Shown piece after piece: positions 30,808 to 34,632 of a DNA stretch of 64,000 bases. The DNA comes from Salinibacter grassmerensis (lineage in GTDB: Bacteria; Bacteroidota; Rhodothermia; Rhodothermales; Salinibacteraceae), in contig NZ_CAMTTF010000001.1 in the NCBI RefSeq assembly GCF_947077765.1, forward strand, positions 1 through 64,000, given 5' to 3'. The position numbers and the translations under genes are program-made. Numbering within the stretch: position 1 is the stretch's first letter; each line of letters starts with the position of its first letter. A model generated the notes under the pieces. The model was not told the origin of the DNA, did no database searches, and was given only the letters and a program-made list of their open reading frames with translations.

Positions 30808-32403
30808 TTAAAAGGGAGCGTCGTCCTCGAACGAATTGCCGCCGCCCCCAGCGTTCCCGTCGGGCGGTGGGCCCATGGGGGCGGAGCCGTCGCCCTGGGG
30901 CGGGCCGCCCCCGGGATTGTCGTACTGGGTGGTGAGGGGTTCGAAGCGGGCATACTGGTTGACGAACGCCAGCTCGACGGAGCCGATGGGACCGTTGCGC
31001 TGCTTGCCCACGATAATTTCGGCGATGCCCTCGGTGGAGTTGCCCTGCTCGTCGACGGTGATGCCGTAGCGCTCGGCGCGGTAGATAAACGACACCACGT
31101 CGGCGTCCTGCTCGATCGACCCTGACTCGCGGAGGTCCGAAAGCTGGGGGCGCTTGTCGCCACCCCGATTTTCGACGGCACGGTTGAGCTGAGAAAGGGC
31201 AATCACGGGGATGTCGAGCTCCTTCGCGAGGCCCTTGAGCGAGCGAGAGATGTGAGCAATTTCCTGCTCGCGGTTGGCGCCGCTGCGCAAGTTGGACCCG
31301 GAGGCCTGCATGAGCTGCAGGTAGTCGACCACTACGAGCCCGAGCTCGTGCTCGGCCTTCAGGCGGCGGCACTTGGCGCGGAGCTCCAGTACACTGAGCC
31401 CTGGCGTGTCGTCAATGTAGATGTCCGCGTCGCTGAGAGCACCGGCCGCCCGGGCCAGGCGTTGCCAGTCGTCGTCCTTCATCCGGCCCGTGCGGGCCCT
31501 GTGGGCGTCCACGCGGGCCTCAGAGGTGAGCATGCGCTGGGCAAGTTGCTGCGCCCCCATCTCCAGCGAAAAGATGGCCACGCCGGTCGAGCGCTCCGGG
31601 TGCGTGGCGGCGTTCTGGGCCGATGCCAGCGCGAAGGCCGTCTTTCCCATAGAGGGCCGCGCGGCGATGATAATCAGGTCGGAGTCTTGCCACCCGCTCG
31701 TGAGGTCGTCGAGCTTGGGAAAGCCGCTGGGCACGCCCGTGATGCCGCCGTCCTGCCCGTGGATGGTTTCGAGGCGCTCCAGGGTGTCTTTCACCACCTC
31801 GTTCATCGGGGCGGCGGCCTTGCGAAGCTGATTGTCCGAGATCTGGAAGATCTTGCTTTCCGCCTCGTCGAGCAGTTCAAAGGCGTCGGCCCCCGAGTCG
31901 TACGCCTTCTGCACGACCGTCGTCATCGTCTCGATCATCCGCCGGAGCAGCGACTTCTCCGCGATGATGCGGGAATGGTACTCCACGTTCGCCGCGGAGG
32001 CGACCTGTGTGGTGAGCTCGGTCAGGTAGTAGGCGCCCCCAATCTCCTCCAGCTTGTCGCGACGCCGCAGCTCCTCGGTGAGGGTGACGAGGTCGACAGG
32101 ATTTCCTCGTTCGAAGAGATCCTGGATGCAGCCGTAGATGCTCTGGTGCTTGCTCTCGTAGAAGGCATCCGACGGAAGAATCTCGATGGCCTGCGGGATG
32201 GCCTCCCGCTCGATGAGCATGGCACCGAGGACGGATTTCTCCACGTCGACGGCCTGCGGCGGGACGCGCCCGGACTGGTCGTGGACCGCCTGTGCCTGCT
32301 CCCGCTGATTCCCGCCCGCGCCGCCCCGCATTTTTTCGAGGGGGTAGGACGACCGGGACGACTCGTCAATATTGAATCGTTGGGAGTCGTCGTTTTCAGC
32401 CAT
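30808..32403 (-). CDS. dnaB: Replicative DNA helicase DnaB with SSB-like C-terminal tail
   Basis: 531 residues. The N-terminal helical domain begins near residue 48 (VPPQAVDVEKSVLGAMLIE). The RecA-like motor has Walker A ARPSMGKTAFAL, GVAIFSLEM, LVVVDYLQLM, and ALSQLNRAVE / DLRESGSIEQDADVV. It unwinds DNA ahead of the replisome as a hexamer. The tail after the motor (about 490-531) is a Gly/Pro-rich linker ending NSFEDDAPF, closely resembling the acidic Phe-ended tip of SSB (DDDIPF in E. coli). No intein. It is the last gene of the leftward cluster, convergent with the tRNA cluster. Confidence 0.97.
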   Translation of the reverse strand: MAENDDSQRFNIDESSRSSYPLEKMRGGAGGNQREQAQAVHDQSGRVPPQAVDVEKSVLGAMLIEREAIPQAIEILPSDAFYESKHQSIYGCIQDLFERGNPVDLVTLTEELRRRDKLEEIGGAYYLTELTTQVASAANVEYHSRIIAEKSLLRRMIETMTTVVQKAYDSGADAFELLDEAESKIFQISDNQLRKAAAPMNEVVKDTLERLETIHGQDGGITGVPSGFPKLDDLTSGWQDSDLIIIAARPSMGKTAFALASAQNAATHPERSTGVAIFSLEMGAQQLAQRMLTSEARVDAHRARTGRMKDDDWQRLARAAGALSDADIYIDDTPGLSVLELRAKCRRLKAEHELGLVVVDYLQLMQASGSNLRSGANREQEIAHISRSLKGLAKELDIPVIALSQLNRAVENRGGDKRPQLSDLRESGSIEQDADVVSFIYRAERYGITVDEQGNSTEGIAEIIVGKQRNGPIGSVELAFVNQYARFEPLTTQYDNPGGGPPQGDGSAPMGPPPDGNAGGGGNSFEDDAPF

Positions 32404-32503: not shown

Positions 32504-33358
32504 TCAGGTTTCGTCCGTCAACTGGTCGTAGCGGGTGCGAAGCAGCTTAACGTCCTCCCACGTGGGCCGCTTCCACTGCGAATTACGCAGGAGGGCGGCC
32601 GGGTGGTAGGTTGCCATCAGGGGAATGCCGTAGAAGTCGTGCTCCTGGTCCCGTAGGTTGGAGAGGGAGGAGCTCCGGTCCAAGAGCGTGTTGCCGGCCA
32701 CCTTGCCCACGGTGAGAATAATTGTCGGACGGATTAGCGCGATCTGCTTGTAGAGCACCGGCAGATGCGCGTCGACTTCCTCCGATTTCGGGTTGCGATT
32801 GCGGGGCGGGCGGCTCTTCAGAATATTGGTGATGTAGACGTCCTCCCGCTCAAAGTTGATCGCGTCGAGAATCTTATCGAGGAGCTGCCCGGCCCGGCCG
32901 ACGAATGGTTCGCCCTCTTCGTCCTCGTTGCGCCCAGGGGCCTCCCCGATGATGACGAGGTCGGCCTCGGGGTCGCCGACGCCGAAGACGGGGTTTTCCC
33001 GGTCTTCGTCGATCGGCACGAGCACATTATCGGCGAAATACTGCTCCACCTCCTCCAGCGTGTCGGCGTCCTTGTACGGGGCATCGTCGGGGATGAGGGC
33101 CTCGATGCGCTCCGAGGGGGGCAGTGAGGGGTCCTCGGCGGGGTCTACCTGATTGCCAAACAGATCGTAGTTGGGCATATCGGGATCGGATGCGGCGTCG
33201 TCGGGAGCAGTGTGTGAAGGCGTGTCGGTCTCGGCGGGGGGCGCGTCGGGGGATGAAGCCGATGCGGACGCCTCTGCAGGGGGCAAGGGAAGAAGGTCCC
33301 CGTGGAGTGCCCGCTCGTGCTCAACGATGGCCCGCAGCTCGCGGAGGAGGTCTTGCAT
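32504..33358 (-). CDS. Family 4 (type IV) uracil-DNA glycosylase lacking Fe-S cysteines
   Basis: 284 residues. The N-terminal 110 are acidic, Pro/Ala-rich and probably disordered. The glycosylase core has [20 protein letters not shown] (in part [20 protein letters not shown]), [26 protein letters not shown] and the catalytic-side motif [10 protein letters not shown]. It would remove uracil from DNA. Family 4 enzymes usually carry a 4Fe-4S cluster on four Cys. This protein contains no Cys at all: KCRPP is KSRPP, and the following ligand position in the [10 protein letters not shown] helix is not Cys. Gene order is coaBC-udg-dnaB. Function is likely but cluster-independent. Confidence 0.87.
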
Positions 33359-33381: not shown

Positions 33382-34632
33382 CTACGTGCCTGGGTCGTGG
33401 TGGGCGGTTAGCACGCGGTCGAGCAGGGCCTCGGCCACCTCGGCTTTCGGCATGCGGGGAAGGTCTTCGGACGCGCCGTCGGGGTGAAGGAGCGTGACCC
33501 GATTCGTAGAGGACCCGAAGCCGGCCCCCTCCTCCGTCGGGTCGTTGACAACAATCCAGTCGAGGTTTTTTTCGTCCAGCTTGTGCCGGGCGTTTTCGAG
33601 GGCGTCGTCGGTCTCCAGCGCGAAGCCCACGAGGACCTGGTCGGGACGCCTGTGCGCCCCAAGGGTTTTTAGAATATCGGGGGTTTGGCGGAGGTGCAAG
33701 ACCAGGTCTTCGTCTCTTTTCTTGCGCTTGGAGGTCGACGGATCGGCCGGGGTGTAGTCGGCCACCGCGGCGGCCATGAACACGTAGTCGGCATCTGTGC
33801 CCCGGGCCTGTACGGCCTCGTTCATCTCTTCGGCCGTCCGTACGGAAACAACCTCCACGTCCGGAGGGGGAGAGAGGGCAGTGGGCCCCGTCACGAGCGT
33901 TACCGACGCGCCGCGTGCCGCCGCCGCCTCCGCCAAGGCGTAGCCCATTGTCCCCGTCGAGGGGTTTGTGAGGACGCGCGCCGGATCGATGGGTTCTCGG
34001 GTAGGACCGGCGGTTACGAGCACGTCGTGCCCGGCAAGCGGCAAGTCCCCAGGCGCCTCGGTCGGCTCCGTTTCTGCGAGCACCTCGGCCACGCGCCCAA
34101 GAATCTCCTCGGGCTCGGGCATCCGGCCCTGGCCCACGAGGCCGCTCGCAAGCTCGCCATGGGCGGCGGGCATCACCTCGTACCCAATTTCTTGGAGCCG
34201 GTCTAGGTTGTCCTGCGTGGCGGCGTGCCGGTACATGTCCCGATCCATGGCCGGACACACCAGGAGCGGACAGCGGGCCGAGAGGGCCGTGGCCGTGAGC
34301 ATCGAGTCGCAGAAGCCGTGGGCCAACTTGGCGACCGTCTGGGCCGTGGCGGGGGCCACGACAAAAAGATCCGCCCACTGGCCCAATGTCACGTGCTTCG
34401 TCCACGACCCCTCCTCATTTTCCGGAAAGATCTCCGTCAAGACTTCCCCCTCCGAAAGGGTTCCGAGCGTGAGCGGTGTTACGAAGCGCTCGGCGTCCGG
34501 GGTCATGAGCACCTGTACCTCGGCCCCGGCCTTTTTCAGCTGACGCACGAGTGGCGCCGCCTTGTACGCCGCGATGCTGCCCGTGACCCCCAGCACCACG
34601 CATCGTCCGGACAGGTCGAGAGAGGCGAGCAT
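33382..34632 (-). CDS. coaBC: Bifunctional phosphopantothenoylcysteine decarboxylase / synthetase
   Basis: 416 residues. The flavin-binding CoaC half (1-190) has GVTGSIAAYKA, WTKHVTLGQWADLFVVAPATA (in part HVTLGQWADLFVVAPA) and CPAMDRDMY. The CoaB half (200-410) has VTAGPTREPIDPARVLTNPS and FMAAAVADYTP. Together they convert phosphopantothenate and cysteine to phosphopantetheine on the way to coenzyme A. It lies downstream of rpoZ, as in many Bacteroidota. Confidence 0.96.
   Translation of the reverse strand: MLASLDLSGRCVVLGVTGSIAAYKAAPLVRQLKKAGAEVQVLMTPDAERFVTPLTLGTLSEGEVLTEIFPENEEGSWTKHVTLGQWADLFVVAPATAQTVAKLAHGFCDSMLTATALSARCPLLVCPAMDRDMYRHAATQDNLDRLQEIGYEVMPAAHGELASGLVGQGRMPEPEEILGRVAEVLAETEPTEAPGDLPLAGHDVLVTAGPTREPIDPARVLTNPSTGTMGYALAEAAAARGASVTLVTGPTALSPPPDVEVVSVRTAEEMNEAVQARGTDADYVFMAAAVADYTPADPSTSKRKKRDEDLVLHLRQTPDILKTLGAHRRPDQVLVGFALETDDALENARHKLDEKNLDWIVVNDPTEEGAGFGSSTNRVTLLHPDGASEDLPRMPKAEVAEALLDRVLTAHHDPGT

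Follow-up and report, generated by a model that had tools for sequence, protein, structure and literature searches.

The role of the [4Fe-4S] cluster in DNA glycosylases is a matter of dispute, the candidates being structure, redox sensing and charge transport along DNA. Family-4 uracil-DNA glycosylases remove uracil from both single- and double-stranded DNA. In the family-4 uracil-DNA glycosylase (UDG) of Thermus thermophilus (Tth UDGa; structures 1UI0 and 1UI1), the cluster is held by C13, C16, C84 and C100, and roles have been assigned to E41, G42, E47, F54, N80, N89 and H155 (PMC5387724). The cluster stabilises the family-4 enzyme and the loop between the anchoring cysteines, but catalysis does not require it in the characterised enzymes: when Cys is changed to Ser in Pfu and Afu UDG, about 40% of the activity is lost (PMC5295032). 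Several family-4 homologues occur in Halobacteria, and the majority of them are inactive (PMC5295032). UdgX of Mycobacterium smegmatis has a family-4-like fold, a cluster, a KRRIH loop and a GEQPG motif (PMC10359453).

A search of the open-access literature found no report of a natural cluster-free family-4 UDG. Natural loss of [4Fe-4S] from a base-excision glycosylase is reportedly the subject of a 2016 paper by Trasvina-Arenas on MutY homologues without an iron-sulfur cluster. MutY differs in belonging to another superfamily (helix-hairpin-helix). The original prediction for the locus studied here, which lies in Salinibacter grassmerensis, was of a cluster-free family-4 UDG, perhaps stabilised by an acidic halophilic surface and safer in oxidising, high-light brines. 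The observation was confirmed and the interpretation was half right, in that this is a real, old, clade-wide cluster-free family-4 UDG variant for which the environmental reason was unsupported. The cluster appears dispensable for uracil repair in a group of marine and salt-loving bacteria, as judged from their genomes.

A cysteine-free UDG gene between coaBC and dnaB

The gene occupies positions 32504..33358 of the 64-kb window, by which we mean the whole stretch of S. grassmerensis DNA that was analysed. This zero-Cys ORF had been pointed out previously with no strand given; it lies on the minus strand, as do all features of the window described below. Translation from the ATG start codon, from which residues are numbered, gave 284 amino acids (aa) and 0 Cys. 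Family 4 had been proposed from the motifs GEAPG and HPAALLRN, and this assignment held. The family-4 signatures GE(A/G)PG and HPAA were present as GEAPG (motif A, residues 138-142, 32933..32947) and HPAALLRN (motif B, residues 252-259, 32582..32605), and both the alignment and the match to a solved chain equated E139 with Tth E41 and H252 with Tth H155. The protein matched Pfam PF03167 (E=4.6e-36), scored 181.1 bits against NCBIfam TIGR00758 (UDG_fam4; cut-off 125.3), and had 1UI0, the T. thermophilus family-4 UDG, as its nearest solved chain (E=5e-38). The family match spanned the whole core with no stop, which ruled out a frameshift or a broken gene.

An AlphaFold2 model of the protein had pLDDT values mostly of 93-99 in the core. 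This predicted structure best matched 1UI0 (Z 28.8, rmsd 1.5, 185 residues, 42% identity over the structural alignment), in agreement with Foldseek, and a model of a Balneolota UDG matched 1UI1 and 1UI0 with Z 29.1. AlphaFold often gives a holo-like fold with or without the cofactor.

The conserved neighbours, identified by Pfam and neighbourhood comparison, are the replicative helicase gene dnaB downstream (30808..32403) and the flavoprotein gene coaBC upstream (33382..34632). The gene order coaBC-udg-dnaB is common to many cluster-bearing and cluster-free relatives, and Balneolota retain the dnaB side. Because gene order at the locus is retained, the cluster-free and cluster-bearing UDGs are orthologues. 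In a profile search this was the sole PF03167 gene found in the 3.78-Mb, 99.7% complete S. grassmerensis genome. Searches of the same genome for family-1 Ung (TIGR00628) and for other UDG-superfamily genes found no match, and the idea of a second UDG performing repair in this organism was set aside for lack of any such gene among the search results.

All four cluster ligands are replaced

The Tth ligands C13, C16, C84 and C100 aligned with N111 (33026..33028), V114 (33017..33019), S182 and H198 (32765..32767), respectively. The first 16 residues of the Tth UDGa reference row in this alignment were entered by hand; the CxxC column of that row was the same in other cluster-bearing rows, which were taken from genomes. 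Relatives have T, N, S, A or V at the first former ligand position and I, V, T or L at the second. S182 belongs to the segment KSRPPRN (residues 181-187, 32798..32818), and our reading of the translation agrees with the earlier statement that KCRPP has become KSRPP in this protein. The segment also contains N187, which aligns with Tth N89, the catalytic Asn of motif 3 (PMC5387724). The fourth position was His in all 61 proteins of the group that carries Ser or Thr at position 84 and His at position 100 (Tth numbering; the S-H group), and Ser in 40 of the 41 proteins of its sister group, in which the two residues are exchanged (the H-S group). Thus, the original prediction of a cluster-free variant was borne out in the sense that this UDG, which is very probably active, has lost all four ligand cysteines and would be unable to hold a Cys-ligated [4Fe-4S]. 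Under a definition of family 4 that requires the cluster, the protein would be a cluster-free variant standing next to the family and outside it.

Since Cys is rare in the S. grassmerensis genome (about 1% in long ORFs of the window, giving p ~0.06 for none in 284 aa), the zero count alone is weak evidence, and other zero-Cys ORFs also occur in the window. Unlike the zero count, the loss of every one of the four ligands cannot be put down to chance as judged from the alignment, because it was found in 96 of 99 class orthologues and was fixed differently in two subclades. Chance absence of Cys was therefore ruled out as an account of ligand loss.

Ligand loss predates Salinibacter

The 99 class orthologues comprised 58 with S/T84-H100, 38 with H84-S100 (one with G), 2 with CCCC at the four ligand positions and 1 degenerate sequence. 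Cys was missing from all four positions in each of the 96 cluster-free orthologues, whose cores contained no more than 3 Cys. Roseithermus sacchariphilus and Salinivenus fall in the S-H subclade, that of the S. grassmerensis order, and Fodinibius sediminis, a Balneolota, falls in the H-S subclade. Outside the cluster-free groups, 115 relatives retained Cys100 (104 CCCC, 6 CCSC, 4 CCHC and 1 SCCC).

In a tree built from an alignment stripped of its ligand columns, the cluster-free proteins grouped together without exception and with moderate support (SH-aLRT 83); within this group the S-H and H-S subclades had values of 94 and 99. The two CCCC genomes of the same class (L033 and L034) were placed elsewhere with weak support. 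One old cluster loss is apparently the simplest reading of this topology, although two separate losses may have taken place. With 8 changes at position 84 and 1 at position 100, the tree indicates that position 84 is labile and that Cys100 was lost once. The original prediction had called for an alignment with other Rhodothermota to date the loss. Because ligand loss is common to the whole order, Roseithermus included, and to the Balneolota sister group, it predates Salinibacter, and by this comparison the cluster-free UDG is no Salinibacter quirk.

Three-Cys forms (CCSC and CCHC) were found among the relatives, in Gemmatimonadota, Bradymonadaceae, a gammaproteobacterium and three other families of the phylum. 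These UDGs resemble the cluster-free subclades in having Ser or His at position 84 but retain the other three Cys, and they probably hold a cluster whose fourth ligand is not Cys. Four Gemmatimonadota proteins (L156, L164, L173 and L181) have KHRPP with the other three Cys retained and are candidates for a His-ligated [4Fe-4S] cluster.

A zero-Cys UDG of the family-4 type, and hence without any ligand cysteine, was also found in six haloarchaeal plasmids (L264 292-837; L270-L274) of Halobaculum, Halomarina, Natribaculum and Salinibaculum. The core motifs are kept in these proteins. The four ligand positions read L, V, V or I, and W, so that they differ from the S. grassmerensis UDG in having V or I at position 84 and W at position 100, and they have no Asp at position 19. 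They probably represent a separate cluster loss. Since most family-4 homologues of Halobacteria are inactive (PMC5295032), activity of the plasmid proteins may not be presumed.

Two other unusual family-4 sequences were noted. Genome G069 has a degenerate copy (L133; GGAPG, KFRPSKSE) and no Ung over the cut-off, and a freshwater phage record (MW462191.1; L265) has a family-4 UDG in which two of the four ligands are lost and KCRPP is replaced by IPWRPP.

The cluster-free UDG is probably active

The residues corresponding to Tth E41, G42, E47, F54, N80, N89 and H155 were kept in 60-61 of 61 S-H proteins and in 41 of 41 H-S proteins, with Gly or Ala allowed at position 42; this position is Ala in the cluster-free UDGs, as in most of the family. 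Core dN/dS for the S. grassmerensis UDG against its nearest congeners was ~0.02, a value that points to strong purifying selection on the core.

A family-4 UDG scored over the cut-off in 120 of 127 class genomes. Ung did so in 3 of the 127, all of one genus. Two of these three genomes were examined (L137/G034 and L138/G013; the third is G131), and each contained a full-length family-4 ORF without GEAPG, N80, N89 or HPAALLRN. The dead copies matched PF03167 just over the cut-off, and the place of the L138 ORF between coaBC and dnaB was confirmed. As read from these genomes, the gain of Ung together with a dead family-4 copy is a natural exchange and constitutes the best functional evidence, counting as one event and not three. 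Four other genomes of the 127 had neither a family-4 UDG nor Ung above the cut-off, so not every member of the class has a UDG. We consider it likely that the S. grassmerensis UDG is cluster-free and active. In all likelihood it is the ordinary housekeeping uracil-DNA glycosylase of the cell, a UDGa orthologue that works without [4Fe-4S].

The dead copies raise the alternative that glycosylase activity was lost in S. grassmerensis as well and that the protein was kept as a DNA-binding or replication accessory factor. Full-length ORFs without an active site do exist at the same locus in the Ung-bearing genus, their N-terminal helix outlasts the active site, and inactive family-4 homologues are known from Halobacteria (PMC5295032). 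However, the S. grassmerensis protein has all of its catalytic residues, it combines a core dN/dS of ~0.02 with the absence of any other detected UDG-superfamily gene in the genome, and the dead copies are located exactly where Ung was gained, all of which make loss of activity highly improbable. A uracil-DNA cross-linking function of the UdgX type was also considered, as the model shares its fold with UdgX structures and TIGR03914, the UdgX model, matched the protein at 112.7 bits. This score is well short of the cut-off of 189.95, and the protein lacks the KRRIH loop, GEQPG motif and cluster that UdgX has, motif A being GEAPG. Membership of UdgX was rejected, its probability being negligible.

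An active housekeeping UDG without a cluster would bear on the dispute over cluster function. If true, such an enzyme cannot locate lesions by cluster redox signalling. With a large, old, naturally cluster-free clade, three-Cys intermediates and cluster-bearing sisters that share one gene position, the role of the cluster and the residues able to stand in for it can be tested directly.

Residues that may stand in for the cluster

When columns were compared between cluster-free and Cys-bearing proteins, the five strongest contrasts were the four ligand positions and Tth position 19. At this position, which is D117 in S. grassmerensis (33008..33010) and Met in Tth UDGa, 101 of the 102 cluster-free proteins carry Asp and 1 carries Glu, and Asp is essentially absent there from the Cys-bearing set. 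This extra Asp and a 110-residue N-terminal extension are further differences from Tth UDGa. Asp, His and Ser thus co-occur in and next to the vacated site, His and Ser having traded places between the two subclades. Because this exchange happened once in evolution, it offers no independent repeat of the covariation.

Uracil excision would proceed as in Tth UDGa, with N178 holding uracil, H252 stabilising the leaving group and N187 positioning water. In other family-4 enzymes the cluster anchors either end of the loop that carries the residue equivalent to N187; here that loop would be held instead by hydrogen bonds among D117, H198 and S182, and packing at the former CxxC would add to this hold. 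Loss of the cluster was probably eased by Cys84, which has repeatedly changed to Ser or His in three-Cys relatives. In general terms, the cluster may have been superseded by a few other conserved residues. That this set is an Asp-His-Ser polar network is a serious possibility, though short of probable. Our fuller proposal is tentative: the structural [4Fe-4S] of the main uracil-repair enzyme may have been replaced clade-wide by an Asp-His-Ser site, whose residues would form a triad-like hydrogen-bond network or bind a single metal and in which His and Ser have swapped positions between the two daughter lineages.

Taken by itself, the idea that the vacated site binds one metal ion (e.g. Zn or Fe) via D117, H198 and S/T182 is distinctly unlikely. 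In its favour, the cluster-free clade is the only one in which Asp, His and Ser are fixed together in and next to the old site, and Gemmatimonadota relatives retain three Cys plus a His. On the other hand, Ser and Thr are poor metal ligands, no fourth conserved ligand was found, and the Balneolota exchange which position carries His. The original prediction had accounted for the loss differently, suggesting that halophily or photo-oxidative stress in oxidising, high-light brines drove it, with an acidic surface replacing the cluster and a fragile cofactor being avoided. In keeping with this explanation, the cores are acidic in S. grassmerensis's own family (the only such family among the members inspected), many Balneolota are halophilic, and the zero-Cys homologue of haloarchaea exists. 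However, about 70% of cluster-free cores lack net acidity (69% of S-H and 71% of H-S proteins), and the loss is order-wide, extending to the marine thermophile Roseithermus, in which the core has a net charge of -1.2 per 100 aa. Moreover, the cluster motif C-X6-C-X2-C-X5-C is complete in both Nth and MutY of S. grassmerensis, and the genome also has SufB/D genes, indicating that clusters are not being avoided in this organism. Halophily or oxidant stress is thus an unlikely driver, and this part of the original prediction was not supported. Because haloarchaeal plasmids encode a zero-Cys homologue, salt may still favour cluster loss in some lineages. As a separate observation, Nth of Fodinibius sediminis (L229; genome G300) has a C-terminal Cys motif in which the spacing differs from the usual one (CKARISEPPEHPLCEKYGIRCEC).

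The N-terminal extension

The original prediction had also described a disordered, acidic N-terminus of 110 residues. Its acidity was confirmed, residues 1-110 containing 27 D+E and 5 K+R. Disorder was only partly borne out, low model confidence being found mainly at residues ~21-60, an acidic linker rich in Ala, Pro and Ser (33179..33298) with pLDDT of 41-51. Residues 2-19 were predicted to form a helix (33302..33355; pLDDT ~93-88), and structure was modelled with confidence from about residue 70 onward. In alignments the helix is similar in most relatives and is kept even in the catalytically dead copies. The linker region also carries the motif DLFG (residues 65-68, 33155..33166), which occurs in 22 of 58 S-H group linkers of the order and 0 shuffled sequences, a count inflated by related sequences. 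Motifs of the form QxxLF are repeatedly seen in H-S proteins, as well as in those relatives within the phylum that bear Cys. We take DLFG and QxxLF to resemble the bacterial sliding-clamp-binding peptide, and DLFG is thus a putative clamp-binding peptide of this UDG.
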